Shown one piece after another: positions 18,517-44,017 of a stretch of 44,017 nt of DNA. The notes under the pieces were generated by a model. That model was not told the DNA's origin. It made no database searches and saw only the letters and a list, made by a program, of their open reading frames with translations. Source of the stretch: a virus; the IMG/VR virus record IMGVR_UViG_3300045931_000023, positions 1-44,017 of that record, one strand, 5' to 3'. The first letter of the stretch is position 1; the number at the start of each line of letters is the position of its first letter. Both the position numbers and the translations under genes were made by a program.

Positions 18517-18688
18517 GTACGTCGCGCCGCTCGATCGCGTGGTCCGCGGGGAGCCGTACGACATTCCCTCGGACAACCCGGTCGAGAAGTTCTGGCGCGA
18601 CTACGTCGAAGGCGGGAAGGTCGCGGTCATGAAGGCGATCACCGCGGTGGGCGAAGAGAAGAAGGCGCGGGAGTCGGTGACGCATTGA
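18263..18688 (+). CDS. Hypothetical phage structural-region protein
   Basis: 141 residues from GTG at 18263, chosen because CGGAGG sits six bases upstream and the protein reads naturally from PDYNEAQLAYSLLKDYHYL. It is helical with a central hydrophobic stretch (FNHLAMLVTAKYVTTEMFLFVATKQAARLW) and a conserved-looking ending, FWRDYVEGGKVAVMKAI. It overlaps the preceding frame by 254 bases. The downstream ATG is fused to its stop (TGATG). Function unknown. Confidence 0.6.
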   Translation: MPDYNEAQLAYSLLKDYHYLTVPALKALRAVKKGEANLPESVVQTHRLNATGWFNHLAMLVTAKYVTTEMFLFVATKQAARLWLEYVAPLDRVVRGEPYDIPSDNPVEKFWRDYVEGGKVAVMKAITAVGEEKKARESVTH

Positions 18689-19314
18689 TGGAGCTCGTTA
18701 ACCGCGTGCGCGAGGTCGGCCTGGCGGAAACCACAGCCGCGGCGCTGTGGCCTGCCGAGGCCGTGGCCTGCGTCATGGCGGATGTCCGCGAGGCCGCCGA
18801 GACGGAACGCTGGCGGGAGGTCAAGGGCTTCTCGCGCAAAGTGTTCCTGCGGCAGCTCGAGCCGACCGCGCAGGGCGCCGACGCGATGGCCGAGTGTGCG
18901 CGCGTGATTCAGCCGATGGCCGAGGCCTACATCGGCGGGCCGGCGTACCTGATGCGGACGGATGCCTATCACACACGTCCCGCAATCAGTGGGGTCCGGC
19001 GGCGCTCGCAGAAATGGCATCGGGACGTGGAAGCCACGCGCGTGTTCAAGGCGTTTCTGTACGTGTCGGACGTGGATGCGCAGTGCGGGCCGTTCGAGTA
19101 CGTGCTGGGCTCGAATTTCAGGCGTGGCGCGTGTCCGGCGCGCAGCTATGCCGCGCCTGATGCGACGTTCGAGGCGCACGCGTGCGTGGGGCCGTCTGGG
19201 ACGGCGTTTCTGGTCGATACCGGCGGGATTCATCGGGGTGGTTTCAGTACAGGCGGAGAGCGGCTGCATGTGATGTGGACGTGGCTCCCTGGCAAGAAAG
19301 AGCGGGACGTATGA
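18688..19314 (+). CDS. Fe(II)/2-oxoglutarate dioxygenase, phytanoyl-CoA hydroxylase (PhyH) type
   Basis: 208 residues from the ATG at 18688 (TGATG overlap; the TTG one codon upstream is an alternative). The metal triad reads H111-x-D113 (KWHRDVEATRVFKAFLYVSD) and H182 (TGGIHRGG), with Arg192 a candidate 2-oxoglutarate ligand; GTAFLVDTGGIHRG is the characteristic strand. CGPFEYVLGS between them is typical of PhyH proteins. It would hydroxylate a small molecule or a protein side chain; the substrate is unknown. Placed between head and tail genes, it might modify a virion protein or a host metabolite. Confidence 0.75.
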   Translation: MELVNRVREVGLAETTAAALWPAEAVACVMADVREAAETERWREVKGFSRKVFLRQLEPTAQGADAMAECARVIQPMAEAYIGGPAYLMRTDAYHTRPAISGVRRRSQKWHRDVEATRVFKAFLYVSDVDAQCGPFEYVLGSNFRRGACPARSYAAPDATFEAHACVGPSGTAFLVDTGGIHRGGFSTGGERLHVMWTWLPGKKERDV

Positions 19315-21732: not shown

Positions 21733-22208
21733 TGCCGTTGACATTCGCCCCGGCGCCGATTCGCGACCCGATTGCGGTTCAGCAAACCAACGTCATCACG
21801 CAGCCGTGGATTGATTGGCTCGCGGCGCTGGTGCAGGCCATCGACGCGACGCCAGAGCGGGTGGATTCGACAACGGTCCAAGACCAGAGCGCCAGCATCG
21901 TGGCGACGCCGCTGGGGAATGCCTTGTCGGCGGGGACGTATCGCGTGAGCTGGTATGCCCGCATCACGCGAGCGGGCACCGTCTCGAGCACGCTGACCGT
22001 GACGATTGGCTGGACGGAATCGTCACAGGCGTTGACGTCGTCCGGTGCGGCGATCACGGGGAACACGGTGACGACGACGCAGTCCGGGTCGGTGCTGATC
22101 GACATCGACCACGCCGCGTCGCTCACATATGCCACGACCTACGGGAGTGTGGGCGCGACGTCGATGCAGTATCGGCTCACGGTGGTCGTGGAGAGCGTGA
22201 ACGTATGA
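21732..22208 (+). CDS. Tail protein candidate
   Basis: 158 residues, TGATG overlap with the gp10-like gene. PWIDWLAALVQAIDATPERV is a short amphipathic helix typical of phage fibre or needle N-termini; the rest is beta sandwich-like (GTYRVSWYARITRAGT, STLTVTIGW). It occupies the place of the P22 needle gene 26 but lacks the long coiled coil, so that role is uncertain. Confidence 0.5.
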   Translation: MPLTFAPAPIRDPIAVQQTNVITQPWIDWLAALVQAIDATPERVDSTTVQDQSASIVATPLGNALSAGTYRVSWYARITRAGTVSSTLTVTIGWTESSQALTSSGAAITGNTVTTTQSGSVLIDIDHAASLTYATTYGSVGATSMQYRLTVVVESVNV

Positions 22209-22567
22209 CGGCGCGGATTCTCGAGCCGAACGAGTATCACCGGCTGGCCGGGACGGAAGCGGATGGCGTGTGGCCGCATCTGACGGAAGAGGCGAAGGTG
22301 GTGGTCATCGAGGACGCCGGCGAGATCGTGGGGTGCCAGATTCTCCAGCCGGTCCTGCATGCCGAGTGCGTGTGGGTGCGGCCGGACCATCGCGGGCGTG
22401 GCGTCGTGCAGCAGTTGTGGGCGGCTGTGCAGCGCGCGGCGGTGGTGCATTTCGGCGTGAAGGCGGTTGTGGGGAGCGCGGTCGATGACCGCATGCGCGC
22501 GGTGTTGCGGCATCTCGGGGCCGTGCGCGTGGCGGGCGATTTGTTTACGGTGCCAGTGAAAGGGTAG
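22205..22567 (+). CDS. GNAT-family N-acetyltransferase
   Basis: 120 residues, ATG overlapping the previous stop. CVWVRPDHRGRGVVQQLW is the acetyl-CoA pyrophosphate-binding loop (R/Q-x-x-G-x-G/A type), preceded by a beta strand with ECVWV and followed by AVVGSAVDDRMRAVLRHLGAVRV, the end of the GNAT core. It would transfer an acetyl group from acetyl-CoA to an amine; the substrate is unknown. GNAT genes appear in the structural region of several podoviruses. Confidence 0.7.
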   Translation: MTARILEPNEYHRLAGTEADGVWPHLTEEAKVVVIEDAGEIVGCQILQPVLHAECVWVRPDHRGRGVVQQLWAAVQRAAVVHFGVKAVVGSAVDDRMRAVLRHLGAVRVAGDLFTVPVKG

Positions 22568-28399: not shown

Positions 28400-29764
28400 G
28401 TGCGTACTCTTCTCATTCGTCTCTCACTGGTGGTGGCCGTTGTGGCGGTCTGCGCGTGGCCGGTTCAGGCGCAGCGGTCAAACGAACGGCGCGGGGAACT
28501 GGACACGGCGGCCGAGTGCGTGTCGATCGACGTCTCCGGTTTGGGCAGTGCGGTGGCGGACGTCACGGGGACGTGGGCCGGCACGTTGTCCTTCTACGTC
28601 GAAGGTGGCGGCGGCACGCGCAACGCGGTGGACGTCGCGAAGGCCGATACGCCCTCGACGTTCGTGAACACCACAACGGCCAATGGGGAATGGAAAGCCG
28701 ACGTGGCGGGCTACAAGGCCTTCGTCGTCTGCATGACCTCGTTTACCAGCGGCACCGCGCGGGTCGATCTCACGGCGGCCGGCACGGGTGGCGGCAGCGG
28801 AGGCGGTGGCGGAGGCGGCGGCGAAGTCACCAACGCAGGCACGTTCGCGACGCAGGAGAGCGGGACGCTGCTCACCGAGGTGCAGAGCATCTCGCACGCA
28901 GAAGACTCTGCGCATTCCTCTGGGCATGTGGGTGTGCAGGTTCTCGCCGTGCGGCAGGACTCACAGGTGGACTTCGCGGCTGATGGCGATTACGTGCCGC
29001 TGTCGATCAACGACGCCGGGGAACTGCGGGTCGCGTTCGCAGGGGCGGCGGGCGGCACGTCACTGGCTGACGATGCGGACTTCTCAGCCGGGACGACGCC
29101 ATTTACCCCGGTCGGCGGGTTCTACCAGTCGTCCGTCACGGCCTGCACGGACGGCGACACCTGCGCGGTCGGCATCACGGCGCAGCGCGCGATCAAGGCC
29201 ACGCTCTACTCGGAAGCCGGCGCGGCGTTGACGCCCGCGACGGATGCCACCGAGGACAGCGCCGCGCCAGAAACCGGCCCACTGATTCAGGCTGAATTCG
29301 ATGACGCCAGCACGAACACGGTGGACGAAGACGACGCCGGCAAGCTCCGGATTGATGCCAATCGAATCCTGTATACACGCCAGATCGATCCGTGTTCGGG
29401 GAGTGGGACCAAGCTCTATCTGCCGTTTGACATCACGACGGCGACGACGACGGAAATCACGCCCTCGCTCGCTGGATCCTCGACGCATTACTACATCTGC
29501 GCGCTCAACATCGTGACGCAGGCGGCGAACTCGGTGAACCTCGTTGATGACAACTCCGACAACTGCGATTCGGTGACGGCCAGCCTGATCAGCAGCGGCC
29601 TGGCGGCGACGGATGGCTGGTACTTCGCGGCCAACGGCGGTATCACCATCGGGAATGGGGCCGGGTCGATCATGCGAACGCAGACCTCGAATTCCGTGCT
29701 GTGCCTGGTCACCAGCGCAGCCACCGAGCTGCACGGGCAGTTCGTCGTGGTGGCGGCACCGTAA
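28400..29764 (+). CDS. Secreted protein with signal peptide (1st of five), Gly-linker and beta domains
   Basis: 454 residues from GTG at 28400, selected because GGAGGG lies seven bases upstream and the protein then opens with a textbook signal peptide: Met-Arg-Thr, a Leu/Val/Ala core, and AWPVQA as the cleavage site. After cleavage comes a beta domain, a poly-Gly linker (GGGSGGGGGGGGE near residue 140), and a long Gly/Thr/Asp-rich beta region with ALNIVTQAANSVNLVDDNS, reminiscent of phage fibre-like tips. Sec export of a phage structural-type protein is unusual. An ATG at 28385 would weaken the signal peptide start. Function unknown. Confidence 0.65.
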   Translation: MRTLLIRLSLVVAVVAVCAWPVQAQRSNERRGELDTAAECVSIDVSGLGSAVADVTGTWAGTLSFYVEGGGGTRNAVDVAKADTPSTFVNTTTANGEWKADVAGYKAFVVCMTSFTSGTARVDLTAAGTGGGSGGGGGGGGEVTNAGTFATQESGTLLTEVQSISHAEDSAHSSGHVGVQVLAVRQDSQVDFAADGDYVPLSINDAGELRVAFAGAAGGTSLADDADFSAGTTPFTPVGGFYQSSVTACTDGDTCAVGITAQRAIKATLYSEAGAALTPATDATEDSAAPETGPLIQAEFDDASTNTVDEDDAGKLRIDANRILYTRQIDPCSGSGTKLYLPFDITTATTTEITPSLAGSSTHYYICALNIVTQAANSVNLVDDNSDNCDSVTASLISSGLAATDGWYFAANGGITIGNGAGSIMRTQTSNSVLCLVTSAATELHGQFVVVAAP

Positions 29765-30504
29765 TGCGGCGCCTGCTCGTTCTGATCGGTGCGCTCGCGT
29801 GCCTCTGGGCGCAGCCTGCCGTCGCGGCCGTCGCGCATGATGGCGAGGCGGCGGTCACTGGCGCCAATGGCGGGGCGACAACCACGATCACGCTGTCCGC
29901 GAAGACGACGGCCGGGTCCGATCGCTTGGGCGTGCTGCGCTGCACGTTCCAGGTGCCGGGCAATCTCGTGGGCAATGCCGCGACGTGGAACGGGGTCACG
30001 ATGGGTGCGCCACGGGTGACCGTCGATAACGCCGATGGCAGGGGCGTCAGGATTTGGGCCATTGTCAACCCGCCCACGACTGCCTCTGATGTCGTGGTCG
30101 ATGCGAACTCAGGCGGCGGCACGGGCTACATCTGCACGGCGACCAGCTACAACGGCGTCGATCAGACGACGCCTGTGTCCGCTACCAATACGGCCAGCGG
30201 CACGGCGACCACGGCCACCGTGGACTGCACGGCGGGCTCGTCGGACACCATGATCGTGGACTCGCTGTACTACACCGGGTCCGGCACATCGCCGAGCGTC
30301 GGCGCGAACCAGACGCAGGAAGCCAACACGGATCAGGGCTCGTGGTTCTCGGCGTTCAGTCGGCAGGACGGCGCGGACGGGGACACGATGTCATGGACTG
30401 TGGCGCCAACGCCGGTCTGGTCGATCGGGTGCGCGACTCTGGCTCCGGTGTCGGGCGGTGCTGCCGTAACGCCCAGAGGGACGCTCCTGGGGGTGCTCCC
30501 GTGA
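29764..30504 (+). CDS. Secreted beta-sandwich protein with signal peptide (2nd of five)
   Basis: 246 residues, ATG overlapping the previous TAA. RRLLVLIGALACLWAQPAVA is a signal peptide with Ala-x-Ala cleavage. The mature part is Gly/Thr/Ala-rich (VTGANGGATTTITLSAKTT, IVNPPTTASDVVVDANSGGG, YNGVDQTTPVSATNTASG), a lectin-like or adhesin-like beta sandwich pattern also seen in bacterial extracellular proteins. Several Cys residues could form disulfides in the periplasm. No catalytic residues are recognised. Confidence 0.62.
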   Translation: MRRLLVLIGALACLWAQPAVAAVAHDGEAAVTGANGGATTTITLSAKTTAGSDRLGVLRCTFQVPGNLVGNAATWNGVTMGAPRVTVDNADGRGVRIWAIVNPPTTASDVVVDANSGGGTGYICTATSYNGVDQTTPVSATNTASGTATTATVDCTAGSSDTMIVDSLYYTGSGTSPSVGANQTQEANTDQGSWFSAFSRQDGADGDTMSWTVAPTPVWSIGCATLAPVSGGAAVTPRGTLLGVLP

Positions 30505-32051
30505 GACTTCGACTCCTGCTCGCGGTCCTCGTCTGCCTGTGGGCCAGTTCGGTTGATGCGGCGAATCTCTGCGTCAAGACGGGTGGCAATGACGGGACGG
30601 CGAAAGCGTCAATCAGCTATTCCGCGGGCAATGAGGCCGGGTCAACGTGCTGGGCGACGATTGGCCGGGCGATGTGGGGCAACGCGGATCGCTCGACGCC
30701 GAGTAGTTCTCAAGCCGCAGACGCGGGCGATACGGTCTACGTCTTCGGGGGGACCTACCAATACTCAGGGAACTGCTCACCCTCGACGGGCAACTGTCGC
30801 CTGATCCCACTCTACGACCCGACGAACACCGGAATGATGGGCAGTCCCATCACGGTGACGAGCGTGGGTACCGTCGTGGTAGCCGCGCAGAACTGGAACG
30901 GGCCAGCGGTCGGCGCGAACACCAAGAACTACATCAAGTGGTACGCGGACATCTCGCTGGGCTACAAGTTCACGATGACGGCGTACTCGTCGAATGACGA
31001 CAACGCCGGGGCAAACGAGGTCGATGTCACGCCTGACACCGGGCCGCTCGTGTACGTCGGCTGCACCGGCTGCGAGGCTGAGGGATTCGAGATCAACGGC
31101 GGCGCTGAAAACGACTGGGGCGACAACTACCCAGGCATCCGACTCGAAGGCTGCGACAGTTGCGTGGCTCGGAATAATTACCTCTATAACTTCATGTCAG
31201 ATGCCACGCACTCGTATGGCATCAACACCTACGACGGCGACAACATCCTAATCGAACACAACCGGATCGACAGCGTCGATGCGTGCATCGCCCCGAAGGA
31301 CAACGGGCCCGACACCACGTCGATCGTGTTCCGGTTCAACTACTGCACGAACGCCAGGGTGGCGCTCGTGTGGTCAATCTCCACGATCACGTCGATGCAG
31401 GTCTATCAGAACGTGGTGTCGGGCCTCCTGTCATGGCCAGGGGCCTCATCGTTCATCCACGTGACAGGCGCGGACTTGAACGACACGGACATCTTCAACA
31501 ATGTGTTCTACAACGGGTCCGGTGGCACGACCTGTATCTGGAACGGCGGGTACGACACATCGAGATTCTGGAACAACATCTGCCACACCGCGCCGCGCAT
31601 GATCTCTCACGACAGTGGAGCCACAGGACCGACCGCCGCCGATCTCGATCTCGAGCACAACGTGCTCTACAACGCGACCACGGTGTTCTACACCGGAGGG
31701 GATGGGTCGAAGTCGTTCGCCGATTGGAAGACGGCCTACGCGAATCAATGCGAAGCGTCCCCGGCGTGCGTGACCACCGATCCACGCTTTGCGAATCCTG
31801 CGGGCAGCGATTTCCGGCTCTGCACCGCAGCAGGAGTACCACACGCGTCGTGTGTGGGCGCGTCGCCAGCCATCGGCCTGGGCGTCGATGCGCTCGACCT
31901 CGACGGTGACGCGAGCACCGTAGACACCATCGACGCGGGCGTGTGCGTGACTGGCACCGAGATCATCGGCCTGACCACGGGCGGCATGTCCTGCGCGACC
32001 GGATCGGGTGTGGGGACGCCGCGCCGGTTCCGCTTCAAGGTAGCCGAGTGA
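30501..32051 (+). CDS. Secreted right-handed beta-helix protein (3rd of five)
   Basis: 516 residues from GTG overlapping the previous stop. A signal peptide (RLRLLLAVLVCLWASSVDA) precedes ANLCVKTGGNDG, the classic start of pectate-lyase-like parallel beta-helices. The body has repeated turn motifs with Asn and Gly (CVARNNYLYNFM, NILIEHNRIDSVDACIAPKDNG, DIFNNVFYNGSGG, LEHNVLYN). Many Cys residues suggest disulfides in an oxidising compartment. The fold is used by tailspike depolymerases and by polysaccharide lyases, so binding or degrading a glycan is a reasonable inference; no active-site residues could be fixed. Confidence 0.68.
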   Translation: MRLRLLLAVLVCLWASSVDAANLCVKTGGNDGTAKASISYSAGNEAGSTCWATIGRAMWGNADRSTPSSSQAADAGDTVYVFGGTYQYSGNCSPSTGNCRLIPLYDPTNTGMMGSPITVTSVGTVVVAAQNWNGPAVGANTKNYIKWYADISLGYKFTMTAYSSNDDNAGANEVDVTPDTGPLVYVGCTGCEAEGFEINGGAENDWGDNYPGIRLEGCDSCVARNNYLYNFMSDATHSYGINTYDGDNILIEHNRIDSVDACIAPKDNGPDTTSIVFRFNYCTNARVALVWSISTITSMQVYQNVVSGLLSWPGASSFIHVTGADLNDTDIFNNVFYNGSGGTTCIWNGGYDTSRFWNNICHTAPRMISHDSGATGPTAADLDLEHNVLYNATTVFYTGGDGSKSFADWKTAYANQCEASPACVTTDPRFANPAGSDFRLCTAAGVPHASCVGASPAIGLGVDALDLDGDASTVDTIDAGVCVTGTEIIGLTTGGMSCATGSGVGTPRRFRFKVAE

Positions 32052-32052
32052 A

Positions 32053-32382
32053 ATGTCTATGCGTACGAATCGGGTCCTGATCCTCGCGGCAGTCGTGGCG
32101 GCGGTGCTGTGCAGCGCGCAAGCGTCAGCCCCGCCCGTGCTCGATGAGCTCGCGCAGGAATACATCAACGGAGTGGCGCTGGCGAGTCAGACCGAACAGT
32201 TCGCGCTCGACGTGCTGAAGCAGACCGAGGCGTACAAGAAATACGACGCGGCAAAGAAGACGCGCGAACAACTGCAGGCCGACAGGCTCGCGCGGATCGA
32301 GAAGAAGTATCCCGGCTACACGGTGGATTGGGCGAGGCGGCTCCTCGTCCCAAAACCGCCGCAGGCCGCCAGGAAGGAGTAA
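32053..32382 (+). CDS. Secreted helical protein with signal peptide (4th of five)
   Basis: 109 residues. Start at ATG 32053 or the ATG two codons on. A signal peptide (VLILAAVVAAVLC, then AQASA) precedes a helical charged region (LAQEYINGVALASQTEQFAL, KYDAAKKTREQLQADRLAR) and a Pro/Lys-rich end. The Cys in AVLC does not fit a lipobox well. Function unknown; short helical periplasmic proteins can act as chaperones or envelope spanners. Confidence 0.58.
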   Translation: MSMRTNRVLILAAVVAAVLCSAQASAPPVLDELAQEYINGVALASQTEQFALDVLKQTEAYKKYDAAKKTREQLQADRLARIEKKYPGYTVDWARRLLVPKPPQAARKE

Positions 32383-32384
32383 CG

Positions 32385-32777
32385 ATGCGAGGACTGCTGA
32401 CTGCACTGCTGTTGCTGATCGCCGCGCCGGCGTTGGCGCAGACCAACCCGGTTCAGGTGGGCCGGCCGTTCAGTGTGAGCTTCGACCACGACGGACAGAG
32501 CGTGACCGGCTTTCAGTGCGTGCTGGACGGGAAGCCGTTCGGGACGCCTCTGTCGAGCGCAAGCCGTTCGTGTGCGTTCTCGTCTGGACTGTCGGAAGGC
32601 ACGCACACGATCGCGGTGGAAGCGGTCAATGCCTTCGGTCGGACGTCGAGCGCGGGCCTGACGGCCACGGCGGGATCGCCGCCGGCGCCACCGACGAACC
32701 TGCAGATTCAGATGACGGTCGCGGTCAAGGCGGATGGTACGGTGGAGCTCGTCGCGTTCAACGTCGAGAAGCAGTAA
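32385..32777 (+). CDS. Secreted Ig-like domain protein with signal peptide (5th of five)
   Basis: 130 residues from ATG 32385 with AGGAAGGAG just upstream, the best ribosome-binding site in this block. A signal peptide (RGLLTALLLLIAAPALA) is followed by QTNPVQVGRPFSVSF. The mature domain, with CVLDGKPFG, SRSCAFSSGLSEGTHTIAVEAVNAFG, is an Ig/fibronectin-type beta sandwich with two Cys in disulfide-bond positions. C-terminal strands follow a Pro linker. Likely adhesive or structural; target unknown. Confidence 0.62.
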   Translation: MRGLLTALLLLIAAPALAQTNPVQVGRPFSVSFDHDGQSVTGFQCVLDGKPFGTPLSSASRSCAFSSGLSEGTHTIAVEAVNAFGRTSSAGLTATAGSPPAPPTNLQIQMTVAVKADGTVELVAFNVEKQ

Positions 32778-33097: not shown

Positions 33098-33375
33098 ACT
33101 CCTACGTCGAAGCGTTCTACGCCGTCGAGTCGATGACGGCCGCCGAGCGCGACGTGGCGCTGATGGAGGTCGAGAAGCGGCCGCTGCTGGCGAAGGTGGT
33201 TGGGTGGAAGTTGACCGAGCCGGACGCCTACGCCGAGATCCTGGCGCTGATTATGGCGCGCCACCCACCGCCACCGGAGAAGAAGCGCGGCGGCAATCAA
33301 TACGGCCTGCTGAACAAGCGCAAGGCCACCTACGCGGAAACCAGGGATCGCGCAGCACGAGAGGCGGCGGCCTGA
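33094..33375 (+). CDS. Small hypothetical protein in lysis cassette
   Basis: 93 residues from GTG overlapping the previous stop (GTGA). Helical N-terminus (SYVEAFYAVESMTAAERDVALMEVE), then a basic Pro/Lys/Arg-rich tail ending in Ala-rich helix (AETRDRAAREAAA). No membrane segment. The next ATG overlaps its stop (TGATG). Function unknown. Confidence 0.5.
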   Translation: MNSYVEAFYAVESMTAAERDVALMEVEKRPLLAKVVGWKLTEPDAYAEILALIMARHPPPPEKKRGGNQYGLLNKRKATYAETRDRAAREAAA

Positions 33376-33743
33376 TGTGGATCTGGTGTTCTGCAACCGG
33401 CGCACTCCTCGATGCGCAACGACAGAACAAGGCATACGGCTACGCCGGACGTGGGTCGGGCGTGAACAACCCGGACCTGCAGCACGTCAAGGGCATCGGG
33501 CCGCTGCCGGAAGCGGTCTACGTGATCGCCCCGCCGCGCGACTCCGACGTGACCGGGGCGTACTCGCTTCCGCTGATTCCGCAGGTTGGGAGCGAACTGT
33601 ACGGGCGCAGCTCGTTCGCGGTACATGGCGACTCGCACAGTCATCCCGGTGAGGCGTCACACGGGTGCATCGTGCTGACGCGGGCGCAGCGCGAAAAAAT
33701 CTGGGCATCGGACGATCACGTGCTTCGCGTGGTTGCGATATGA
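33375..33743 (+). CDS. L,D-transpeptidase-fold protein (DUF2778/Tlde1-like), candidate endolysin
   Basis: 122 residues, TGATG overlap with the upstream gene. The signature is FAVHGD (H84) followed by SHGCIVL (S95-H96-G97-C98), the YkuD-type HG...SHGC catalytic motif with a nucleophilic Cys98. NNPDLQHVKGIGPLPEAVYVI matches the N-terminal strand of DUF2778/Tlde1 proteins. Such enzymes act on peptidoglycan stem peptides, either cross-linking or cutting. No lysozyme, amidase or other endolysin is recognised in this genome, so it is the best candidate for the lysis enzyme, flanked by membrane proteins on both sides. It has no signal peptide and would need a holin. Confidence 0.72.
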   Translation: MWIWCSATGALLDAQRQNKAYGYAGRGSGVNNPDLQHVKGIGPLPEAVYVIAPPRDSDVTGAYSLPLIPQVGSELYGRSSFAVHGDSHSHPGEASHGCIVLTRAQREKIWASDDHVLRVVAI

Positions 33744-33754
33744 GGAGACGAATC

Positions 33755-33937
33755 GTGTTCAAGGGTTATCGGTCGCATGTCGTGAACGGACTCACCGCAG
33801 TGATCGCGGTGCTCGCGTTGCCCGAGGTCAGCGGGTTGATTCCACCGGAGTACGTCAAGTTCGTCCCGGCCGTGCAGGGCGTCGTCGCGATCGTCATGCG
33901 GCAGATGACCACGACGCCGGTCGGGCAGAAGGAGTAA
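33755..33937 (+). CDS. Holin-like small membrane protein
   Basis: 60 residues from GTG at 33755, chosen for the GAGGAG seven bases upstream; an ATG at 33740 would add five residues. VVNGLTAVIAVLALPEVSGL is one transmembrane helix and KFVPAVQGVVAIVMRQM a second. The tail TTTPVGQKE is a common ending of phage holin-like proteins (R-x-x-T-T-T-P-V-G). It sits directly after the peptidoglycan enzyme, supporting membrane permeabilisation at lysis. Confidence 0.65.
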   Translation: MFKGYRSHVVNGLTAVIAVLALPEVSGLIPPEYVKFVPAVQGVVAIVMRQMTTTPVGQKE

Positions 33938-41508: not shown

Positions 41509-42303
41509 GTGATCAGCATCAAGCATCGATGGACGGAAGCGGTGTTGTGGACGGGCGAGGCGGCGGATCTGCGCGACGCCGTTATGCAGGCGGTGGCAGC
41601 GGGCGCGAACCTCGGTGGCGCGGACCTCGGTGACGCGAACCTCGGTGACGCGAACCTCCGTGGCGCGAACCTCGGTGGCGCGAACCTCCGTGGCGCGAAC
41701 CTCGGTGACGCGAACCTCGGTGACGCGAACCTCCGTGGCGCGAACCTCGGTGGCGCGAACCTCCGTGGCGCGAACCTCCGTGGCGCGAACCTCCGTGGCG
41801 CGAACCTCGGTGGCGCGAACCTCCGTGGCGCGAACCTCCGTGGCGCGAACCTCGGTGGCGCGAACCTCCGTGGCGCGAACCTCGGTGACGCGAACCTCGG
41901 TGACGCGAACCTCCGTGGCGCGAACCTCCGTGGCGCGAACCTCCGTGGCGCGAACCTCCGTGGCGCGGACCTCGCGTTCTTTCGCGACGATGTCTACGCC
42001 GTGCTCTCTAGTGCGCCGCGTGAGGCCGCTGCGGTGCTGGCGGCGCTCCGTGCGGGGGCCGTGGACGGCTCGTCGTATCAAGGCCAGTGCGCGTGCCTGG
42101 TGGGCACGATTGCGAAGGCGCAGCACTGCGACTACCAGCACGTGCCCGATCTGACGCCGAACGCGCGACGCCCTGCGGAGCAGTGGTTTGTGCAGATTCG
42201 TCCCGGCGATACCCCGGAGACGTCAGAGGCGTGCAAGCAGGCCGCGATCTGGGTCGAGGCGTGGATTGATCGGATGCGGACGGCGTTCGGTGTGACGGCG
42301 TGA
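41509..42303 (+). CDS. Pentapeptide-repeat protein with C-terminal domain
   Basis: 264 residues from GTG with GGAGAGGG upstream. After a 30-residue head (KHRWTEAVLWTGEAADLRDAVMQA) come about 24 A-N/D-L-x-x repeats (ANLGG, ANLRG, ANLGD), a quadrilateral beta-helix that can mimic DNA. The C-terminal domain, with AFFRDDVYAVLSSAPREAAAVLAALR and SSYQGQCACLVGTIAKA then RPAEQWFVQIRPGDTPE, is characteristic of a phage/actinobacterial family with unknown role. DNA mimicry, for example against host gyrase or nucleases, is a hypothesis from the fold. Confidence 0.8.
   Translation: MISIKHRWTEAVLWTGEAADLRDAVMQAVAAGANLGGADLGDANLGDANLRGANLGGANLRGANLGDANLGDANLRGANLGGANLRGANLRGANLRGANLGGANLRGANLRGANLGGANLRGANLGDANLGDANLRGANLRGANLRGANLRGADLAFFRDDVYAVLSSAPREAAAVLAALRAGAVDGSSYQGQCACLVGTIAKAQHCDYQHVPDLTPNARRPAEQWFVQIRPGDTPETSEACKQAAIWVEAWIDRMRTAFGVTA
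41605..41973 (+). repeat. 15-bp tandem array encoding pentapeptide repeats
   Basis: About 24 consecutive 15-bp units, consensus GCGAACCTCSGTGRC (S = g or c, R = g or a). Only two positions vary, giving Gly/Arg and Gly/Asp at the variable residues; the Ala-Asn-Leu codons are identical throughout. Such uniformity fits recent expansion by slippage or unequal recombination. All other frames and the opposite strand stay open as a by-product. Confidence 0.9.
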
Positions 42304-43643: not shown

Positions 43644-44017
43644 ATGGCCTGCAAGATTGATTCCCTGACGGCGGACCAGCAGGCGGCGCTGATCGCGTAT
43701 CGTGCCGAGTGGCTGGCGCATGGGCGAAGTTGTGCCCCAGCAGATCGGGGCGCCACCGCCCGCGTGCTAACGGCGATGTATGCGGCCATCAATGAAGCGC
43801 CGCCCTATGTGTGGTGGTGTGATGGCCCGGCGGTGGGCTCGCTGGTGCGCGGCGTCCTCTGGGCCAACCTCTGGGACAACCTCGGGGCCGACCTCGGGGA
43901 CAACCTCTGGGCCAACCTCAGGGCCAACCTCGGGGCCAACCTCGGGGACAACCTCAGGGCCAACCTCGGGGCCAACCTCTGGGACAACCTCTGGGCCAAC
44001 CTCAGGGACAACCTCGG
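43644..44017 (+). CDS. DUF6745-type repeat protein, N-terminal part (continues at window start)
   Basis: Starts at ATG 43644 immediately after the previous stop and is open to the end. The N-terminal 70 residues (SLTADQQAALIAYRAEWLAHG, then PPYVWWCDGPAVGSLVRG) match the head domain of DUF6745-type proteins. From 43854 the sequence becomes the 12-bp tetrapeptide array, which continues at base 1. With the 68-base overlap removed, the whole gene encodes about 367 residues. Confidence 0.75.
   Translation, partial: MACKIDSLTADQQAALIAYRAEWLAHGRSCAPADRGATARVLTAMYAAINEAPPYVWWCDGPAVGSLVRGVLWANLWDNLGADLGDNLWANLRANLGANLGDNLRANLGANLWDNLWANLRDNL
43854..44017 (+). repeat. 12-bp tandem array (tetrapeptide N-L-x-A/D), right part
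   Basis: Begins with VLWA, then NLWD, NLGA, DLGD and similar units, and runs off the window end. The first eight units are unique to this end; from 43950 it duplicates positions 1-68. Confidence 0.9.
43950..44017. repeat. Terminal direct repeat, right copy
   Basis: Identical to bases 1-68, in the same codon phase. See the left copy: the assembly is circular or circularly permuted and the unique length is 43,949 bp. Confidence 0.9.

Follow-up and report, generated by a model that had tools for sequence, protein, structure and literature searches.

Single exported phage proteins are already known, from lysis, from exclusion and from the case of XepA. XepA of the Bacillus subtilis prophage PBSX is absent from mature particles, is exported during phage development and is cytotoxic in plaque assays (PMC6834076). 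Like YomS of SPbeta it is a phage beta-sandwich protein, and it is encoded directly beside xhlA. The soluble, glycan-cutting depolymerase GH32 of Bacillus phages is predicted to be secreted and is reported without a signal peptide (PMC4595243), and Pantoea stewartii WceF, a biofilm-modifying enzyme, is described as having a phage tailspike-like fold (PMC7949094). Furthermore, the cultured podophages BcepC6B and PBR31 carry, between tail spike and holin, gp19 (L100:4001-5074), annotated as tail fiber, and orf035 (L058:23906-24715), annotated as structural; in the PBR31 paper a different gene, gp40, is the only one said to have a signal peptide, and no mass spectrometry is reported.

Here we describe a run of five adjacent genes, with products P1 to P5 (Table 1), in the 44,017-base IMG/VR virus record IMGVR_UViG_3300045931_000023, which was analysed over its whole length and is called the window below. 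An XhlA-type gene directly follows P5, as xepA adjoins xhlA; XepA differs in being one protein and not a run, in coming from a Gram-positive host, and in that only P1 matches it, weakly. Soluble phage depolymerases differ from the run as single enzymes that are reported to have no signal peptide, and WceF, likened here by its description only, is encoded by a bacterial and not a phage gene. BcepC6B gp19 and PBR31 orf035 are single genes, in which no sequence similarity to P1-P5 was seen.

Table 1. Coordinates of P1-P5, their parts and the adjoining lysis genes in the window (signal-peptide scores from the home-made scorer; cleavage sites predicted)
Feature	Position	Strand	Details
P1, 454 aa, GTG start (alternatives 28379, 28385)	28400..29764	+	8 Cys after cleavage
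P1 signal peptide, MRTLLIRLSLVVAVVAVCAWPVQA then Q	28400..28471	+	score 7.9
P1 residues 35-126, weak match to XepA positions 185-277	28502..28777	+	NCBIfam, PHROG, PDB
P1 Gly-rich linker	28781..28822	+	sequence
P1 repeat-type domain	29063..29389	+	sequence searches; 52% identity to L006, also L053, L054, L063-L071
P2, 246 aa, two beta-sandwich domains, C-terminal tag TPRGTLLGVLP	29764..30504	+	sequence and AF2
P2 signal peptide, MRRLLVLIGALACLWAQPAVA then A	29764..29826	+	score 7.5; Met1 of homologues without signal peptide aligns with the first mature residue
P3, 516 aa, GTG start, parallel beta-helix-type, 18 Cys after cleavage	30501..32051	+	C-terminal tag TPRRFRFKVAE
P3 signal peptide, MRLRLLLAVLVCLWASSVDA then A	30501..30560	+	score 6.9
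P3 Asn ladder, seven xNNxh-type motifs about 27 residues apart (24-29)	31170..31667	+	one shuffle in 5000 gives as many
P4, 109 aa, with a signal peptide before a helical mature part that lacks Cys	32053..32382	+	helical by sequence appearance
P4 signal peptide, start 32053 or 32059, cleavage SAQA then SAPP	32053..32124	+	score 7.6
P5, 130 aa, signal peptide and small beta domain (Ig/fibronectin-like by eye), 2 Cys	32385..32777	+	sequence
P5 signal peptide, MRGLLTALLLLIAAPALA then Q	32385..32438	+	score 6.7
XhlA-type lysis protein, directly 3' of P5	32888..33097	+	PHROG holin/anti-holin E 2.5e-5; Pfam XhlA E 0.0075
Tlde1-domain protein, probable endolysin	33375..33743	+	Pfam Tlde1_dom E 2.7e-13
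Probable holin	33740..33937	+	PHROG E 0.009

The window has podovirus-type PHROG matches for portal, scaffold, major head protein, head-tail adaptor, head closure (Hc3) and ejection proteins, and its Hc3 is 31-32% identical to those of Rhodoferax phage P26218 and Xanthomonas phage PBR31. Its genes run from head, tail and ejection proteins through a short spike-adaptor-like gene (26580, 238 aa) and three small genes to P1-P5, and on to the XhlA-type, Tlde1-domain and holin genes. The tail-spike slot of PBR31 and P26218 thus holds P1-P5 in the window, where the spike-adaptor-like gene alone remains. The five ORFs are present at the coordinates first described for them. P1-P5 lie on the same strand, with neighbours that overlap stop to start or sit at most 2 bases apart, and this operon-like packing continues to the XhlA and endolysin genes. 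The endolysin position itself is occupied by the L,D-transpeptidase-like Tlde1-domain protein.

The preliminary description had read all five products as Sec-exported. To score these N-termini we used a home-made scorer of basic tip, hydrophobic core and small-x-small site, checked on two E. coli K-12 regions, where exported proteins score 3.5-6.9, the top cytoplasmic false positive, Mdh, scores 4.7, and several transmembrane proteins also score high, so that the scorer alone cannot separate anchors from cleaved signals. All five have a basic tip, a hydrophobic core and a small-x-small site, with scores from 6.7 to 7.9. The site had been described as Ala-x-Ala throughout, which holds for some only: cleavage is predicted at VQA-Q, AVA-A, VDA-A, AQA-S and ALA-Q, that is, at A-x-A or V-x-A. 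With called starts, P1-P5 are the sole signal-peptide genes among the 66 called genes of the window, and all are adjacent (p about 8e-6 for five of five among 64 genes); gene 14300 passes the scorer only from an alternative upstream start. Among 227 non-gene ORFs in the GC-rich DNA of the window, one passes the threshold and none reaches the level of P1-P5. By the same scorer, BcepC6B gp19 and PBR31 orf035 reach 7.8 and 6.1. Collectively, these features make Sec export of P1-P5 a well-supported prediction. We found no lipobox in P1-P5, which rules them out as exported lipoproteins of the exclusion type. The N-terminus of P4 may be an uncleaved membrane anchor.

Next we examined the cysteines, whose pairs had been thought suited to the periplasm. 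The mature forms of P1-P5 contain 8, 4, 18, 0 and 2, all even, in keeping with the proposed pairing in P1, P2, P3 and P5, P4 being Cys-free. P1-P4 each have one further cysteine inside the signal peptide, hence odd precursors and even mature forms; mature BcepC6B gp19 and PBR31 orf035 have 4 and 2. Other genes with at least two cysteines often have even counts as well, so that a raw parity test misleads, and control rates were used instead. Among 21 signal-peptide proteins from the runs and slots, an even number is found in 16 of the 18 that contain cysteine, compared with 41% for the other genes at these loci (p 3e-5), and of those with at least four cysteines 12 of 13 are even, against 64% in other genes (p 0.024), the p-values being indicative as the proteins were picked by similarity. 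Cysteine content is 1.67% in the signal-peptide proteins versus 0.44% in their signal-less homologues. Paired mature cysteines thus indicate an oxidising compartment and cleavage.

P1 consists of the signal peptide, a beta domain (35-126), the Gly-rich linker, a GGTSLADDADF repeat domain and a C-terminal beta domain. Its first beta domain matches the C-terminal domain of XepA (NCBIfam NF047953, E 1.5e-4; PDB XepA 6i56, E 0.025), and PHROG 16458 matches the same stretch (E 5e-4); the XepA match is absent when the profile is built with P1 relatives. Membership of the XepA family was rejected, the NF047953 match reaching 21 bits over the C-terminal third against a full-length cut-off of 400 bits, and we treat the predicted likeness as a weak lead. 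A search with P1 found the 52% identical domain in a phage contig (L006) and weaker matches in MW202554 (L053) and MW202647 (L054). In the species-genome collection no repeat domain was confirmed, and therefore there is no evidence for prophage carriage.

For P2, described beforehand as a lectin-like sandwich, an AF2 model from 17 sequences confirms the beta-sandwich, being all-beta with two domains (pLDDT 80, pTM 0.80); the mature cysteines (39/103 and 134/202) fall, by position, one pair to each domain. The best named matches in BFVD come from phages of Mycobacterium and Gordonia, namely minor tail proteins that span nearly the whole of P2, including both domains (E to 4e-10, TM up to 0.78). 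P2 thus has a fold like that of actinobacteriophage minor tail proteins but differs from them by its signal peptide and two cysteine pairs, and most close P2 homologues have no signal peptide. Foldseek gave no clear match of P2 in the PDB; in a second structural comparison with the PDB, sandwich domains of GH86 agarases came top (Z 9.5 and 8.6 over about 114 residues), and other structures reached common levels only, with XepA 6i56 (Z 6.3) within noise.

P3 had been read as a beta-helix. The spacing of its Asn ladder fits the expectation for a right-handed beta-helix and favours that fold, whereas AF2 from the single sequence gave no usable model. We found no significant match of P3 to an enzyme family in Pfam, NCBIfam, PHROG or PDB (DUF5123 at E 0.13 only), and a search of viral contigs, genomes, phages and PDB returned a near-identical copy only. 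The Ig-like label of P5 comes from sequence appearance (Pfam PKD, E 0.1). Searches of phage records for P2, P4 and P5 found none.

Comparable runs of signal-peptide genes, which the preliminary description had proposed to look for in other phage genomes, turned up in four other phage contigs (L006, L053, L065 and L068) as runs of 3-4 genes with a P1-type repeat protein. The L053 run, four genes after the portal gene, encodes a P1-type protein, a 195-aa protein, a Laminin_G_3 lectin-like protein and a GH28-type protein whose N-terminus, MRLLAIVTTLLVVMPALVEA, scores 4.6, under the scorer cut. In L006 three genes between head and adaptor genes encode a P1-type, an Apiosidase-like and a 235-aa protein. 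The four genes of L065 encode a P1-type protein, a P2-type protein, a P2-type protein with beta-helix and an Ig protein with beta-helix, and L068 has several signal-peptide genes, one of which weakly matches polysaccharide lyase 14. Cysteines are mostly paired in these runs too. Among 1,369 genes of the loci, runs of at least three are confined to these phages and the window, a count that is no census as the loci were picked by similarity; with gene 27296 as anchor (45 loci), no such runs were seen in those phages. No homologues of P3-P5 were found by sequence in the other runs. BLASTP of P2, P3 and P5 against the L065 proteins gave nothing significant, and the L065 parallels therefore rest on fold type, tags and the P2 family alignment. 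The apiosidase-like glycosidase at L006:5051-6454 (Pfam Apiosidase, E 3e-25, and Collagen_bind_2) has a signal peptide and lies among head genes.

The same protein types also occur without signal peptides. P1-type repeats without one are found in L054, L063, L064, L066, L067, L069 and L071, and P2 homologues in about 20 further contigs mostly have none. Signal-less P2 homologues begin with MAIAxDA, aligned to AVAHDG, the first mature residues of P2; they start exactly at mature P2, and the signal peptide is thus a clean addition. Signal-less P1 and P2 homologues are Cys-poor and located in structural and lysis regions. In L054 and L066 the order is a P1-type gene, a C-tagged or P2-type gene and a small gene that is XhlA-like by eye, with a cell-wall enzyme next in L054; this is the arrangement of the window without P3-P5. 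Otherwise similar proteins would so have gained, or lost, both signal peptide and cysteines. Of 971 distinct proteins at the loci, 11 have LLGVG- or RFRV-type C-terminal ends, and almost all of these come from the runs or their signal-less counterparts, by a pattern derived from the same proteins as were counted. These ends are common to different folds, with and without signal peptides, and we hypothesize that they serve as docking or sorting tags. LLGVG-type and RRxRFRVPE-type tags lie at L065:7669-12403 and window 30469-32048, and in L053, L066 and L071.

Taken together, the run is real, beyond chance and recurring in other phages, and it is probably an exported accessory set. The reading we favour, at about an even chance, is that P1-P5 are a late Sec-exported, disulfide-stabilised set of glycan-binding and glycan-degrading proteins that act around the time of lysis in envelope or matrix. 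It builds on the signal peptides, the adjacency, the even cysteines after cleavage and the comparable runs seen in the sequences, and within it we infer late expression, export, disulfide formation, glycan targets and purpose. The host Sec machinery would export P1-P5 late, signal peptidase would cleave them, and P1, P2, P3 and P5 would form disulfides as they fold in the periplasm, virion assembly meanwhile taking place in the cytoplasm. Around lysis, P1 and P2 might bind outside the cytoplasm as beta-repeat and beta-sandwich proteins, P3 could be a beta-helix protein that processes or binds glycans, and P5 a small beta binding module; P4 is left without an assigned role. The set would then likely bind and cut glycans in the envelope or matrix around the dying cell, so that progeny are released and not trapped on debris. 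Given signal peptides and paired cysteines, export is the most economical reading, since a signal peptide would remove an ordinary virion part, assembled in the cytoplasm, from assembly. Together with the binding-type folds, the glycan-active proteins of comparable runs suggest that P1-P5 act on sugars of the envelope or matrix close to lysis. An earlier proposal of a secreted phage complex working outside the cytoplasm agrees with the signal peptides, the even cysteines, the runs with glycan-active enzymes and the proximity of lysis genes as far as a secreted set is concerned, but not as to a "complex", as P3-P5 have no sequence homologues in the other runs.

Against the glycan-directed set stand the tail annotation of signal-less relatives, the fold of P2 and the position of P1-P5 in the tail-spike slot of related phages, and the annotations and the slot leave room for a virion role. 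The lack of a significant enzyme-family match for P3, the XepA match that is lost with P1 relatives and the possible membrane anchor of P4 also weigh against it. Because of that slot and the P2 fold, the main rival is that P1-P5 are exported virion fibres, disulfide-folded in the periplasm, which dock on virions as lysis mixes the compartments, perhaps via their C-terminal tags. This would also accommodate signal-less P1 and P2 homologues in structural and lysis regions, tags common to signal-bearing and signal-less proteins of different folds, and the one signal-peptide "tail fiber" protein that PBR31 and BcepC6B each have in the slot. We nevertheless consider it rather unlikely: the runs of L053, L006 and L065 are placed among genes for the head, MW202554 encodes a tail-collar protein separately, the tags were counted in the very proteins that had defined their pattern, and we know of no tailed phage that assembles by periplasmic fibre docking. 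That tail-type proteins are exported, folded in the periplasm and attached to the virion only at lysis, part of the virion thus being made outside the cytoplasm, is in our view quite unlikely.

Known phage exclusion proteins are exported, and predicted export to the envelope and binding-type folds would suit proteins that coat the infected cell, mask receptors and block the adsorption of other phages; such superinfection exclusion is distinctly improbable here, given that P1, P2, P3 and P5 have neither lipobox nor membrane anchor, that lysis-gene proximity implies late expression and that the enzyme-type members of other runs fit poorly. The place of P1-P5 directly upstream of XhlA, endolysin and holin, together with the match of P1 to a domain of XepA and the cytotoxicity of XepA (PMC6834076), could instead indicate exported XepA-like proteins that help lysis by disturbing the membrane or cell wall and not extracellular glycans. 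As the similarity is weak and of one domain only, and in other phages the runs are located apart from lysis genes and include glycosidases, we judge this very improbable. Extremely improbable, finally, is that the N-termini are no export signals but membrane anchors or chance products of GC-rich DNA: E. coli transmembrane proteins do score high and P4 could be an anchor, but non-gene ORFs are hardly ever flagged, all five proteins have a small-residue cleavage site, cysteines are even after cleavage and the signal peptide of P2 is a clean N-terminal addition. Sequence does not discriminate between coating, exclusion, degradation of the matrix and attachment to virions after export.

In a limited literature search we found no description of runs of 3-5 signal-peptide genes that combine tail-type binding proteins and glycan-active enzymes, and the run seems to be an overlooked secreted phage toolkit, probably aimed at sugars around the infected cell. 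The signal-bearing and signal-less homologues make it testable whether some phages send their binding and degrading proteins via Sec instead of on the virion. They also call for caution, as fold alone is not enough to call such genes virion proteins or host metabolic genes.

Some further features of the window lie outside the run. Its two ends (1-176 and 43850-44017) share one 12-base tandem repeat of the AACCTCGGGGCC type, which encodes NLGANL repeats and adjoins a DUF6745 domain; the record appears to represent a circular or permuted genome that was opened inside this repeat. A GNAT acetyltransferase gene (22205-22567) lies within the tail and ejection block. Between head and adaptor genes, 18688-19314 encodes what by eye resembles a phytanoyl-CoA dioxygenase-type oxygenase, with no Pfam match at E 0.01. 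A DUF5131 protein (863-1885) and a pentapeptide-repeat protein (41509-42303) are both encoded outside the structural region.
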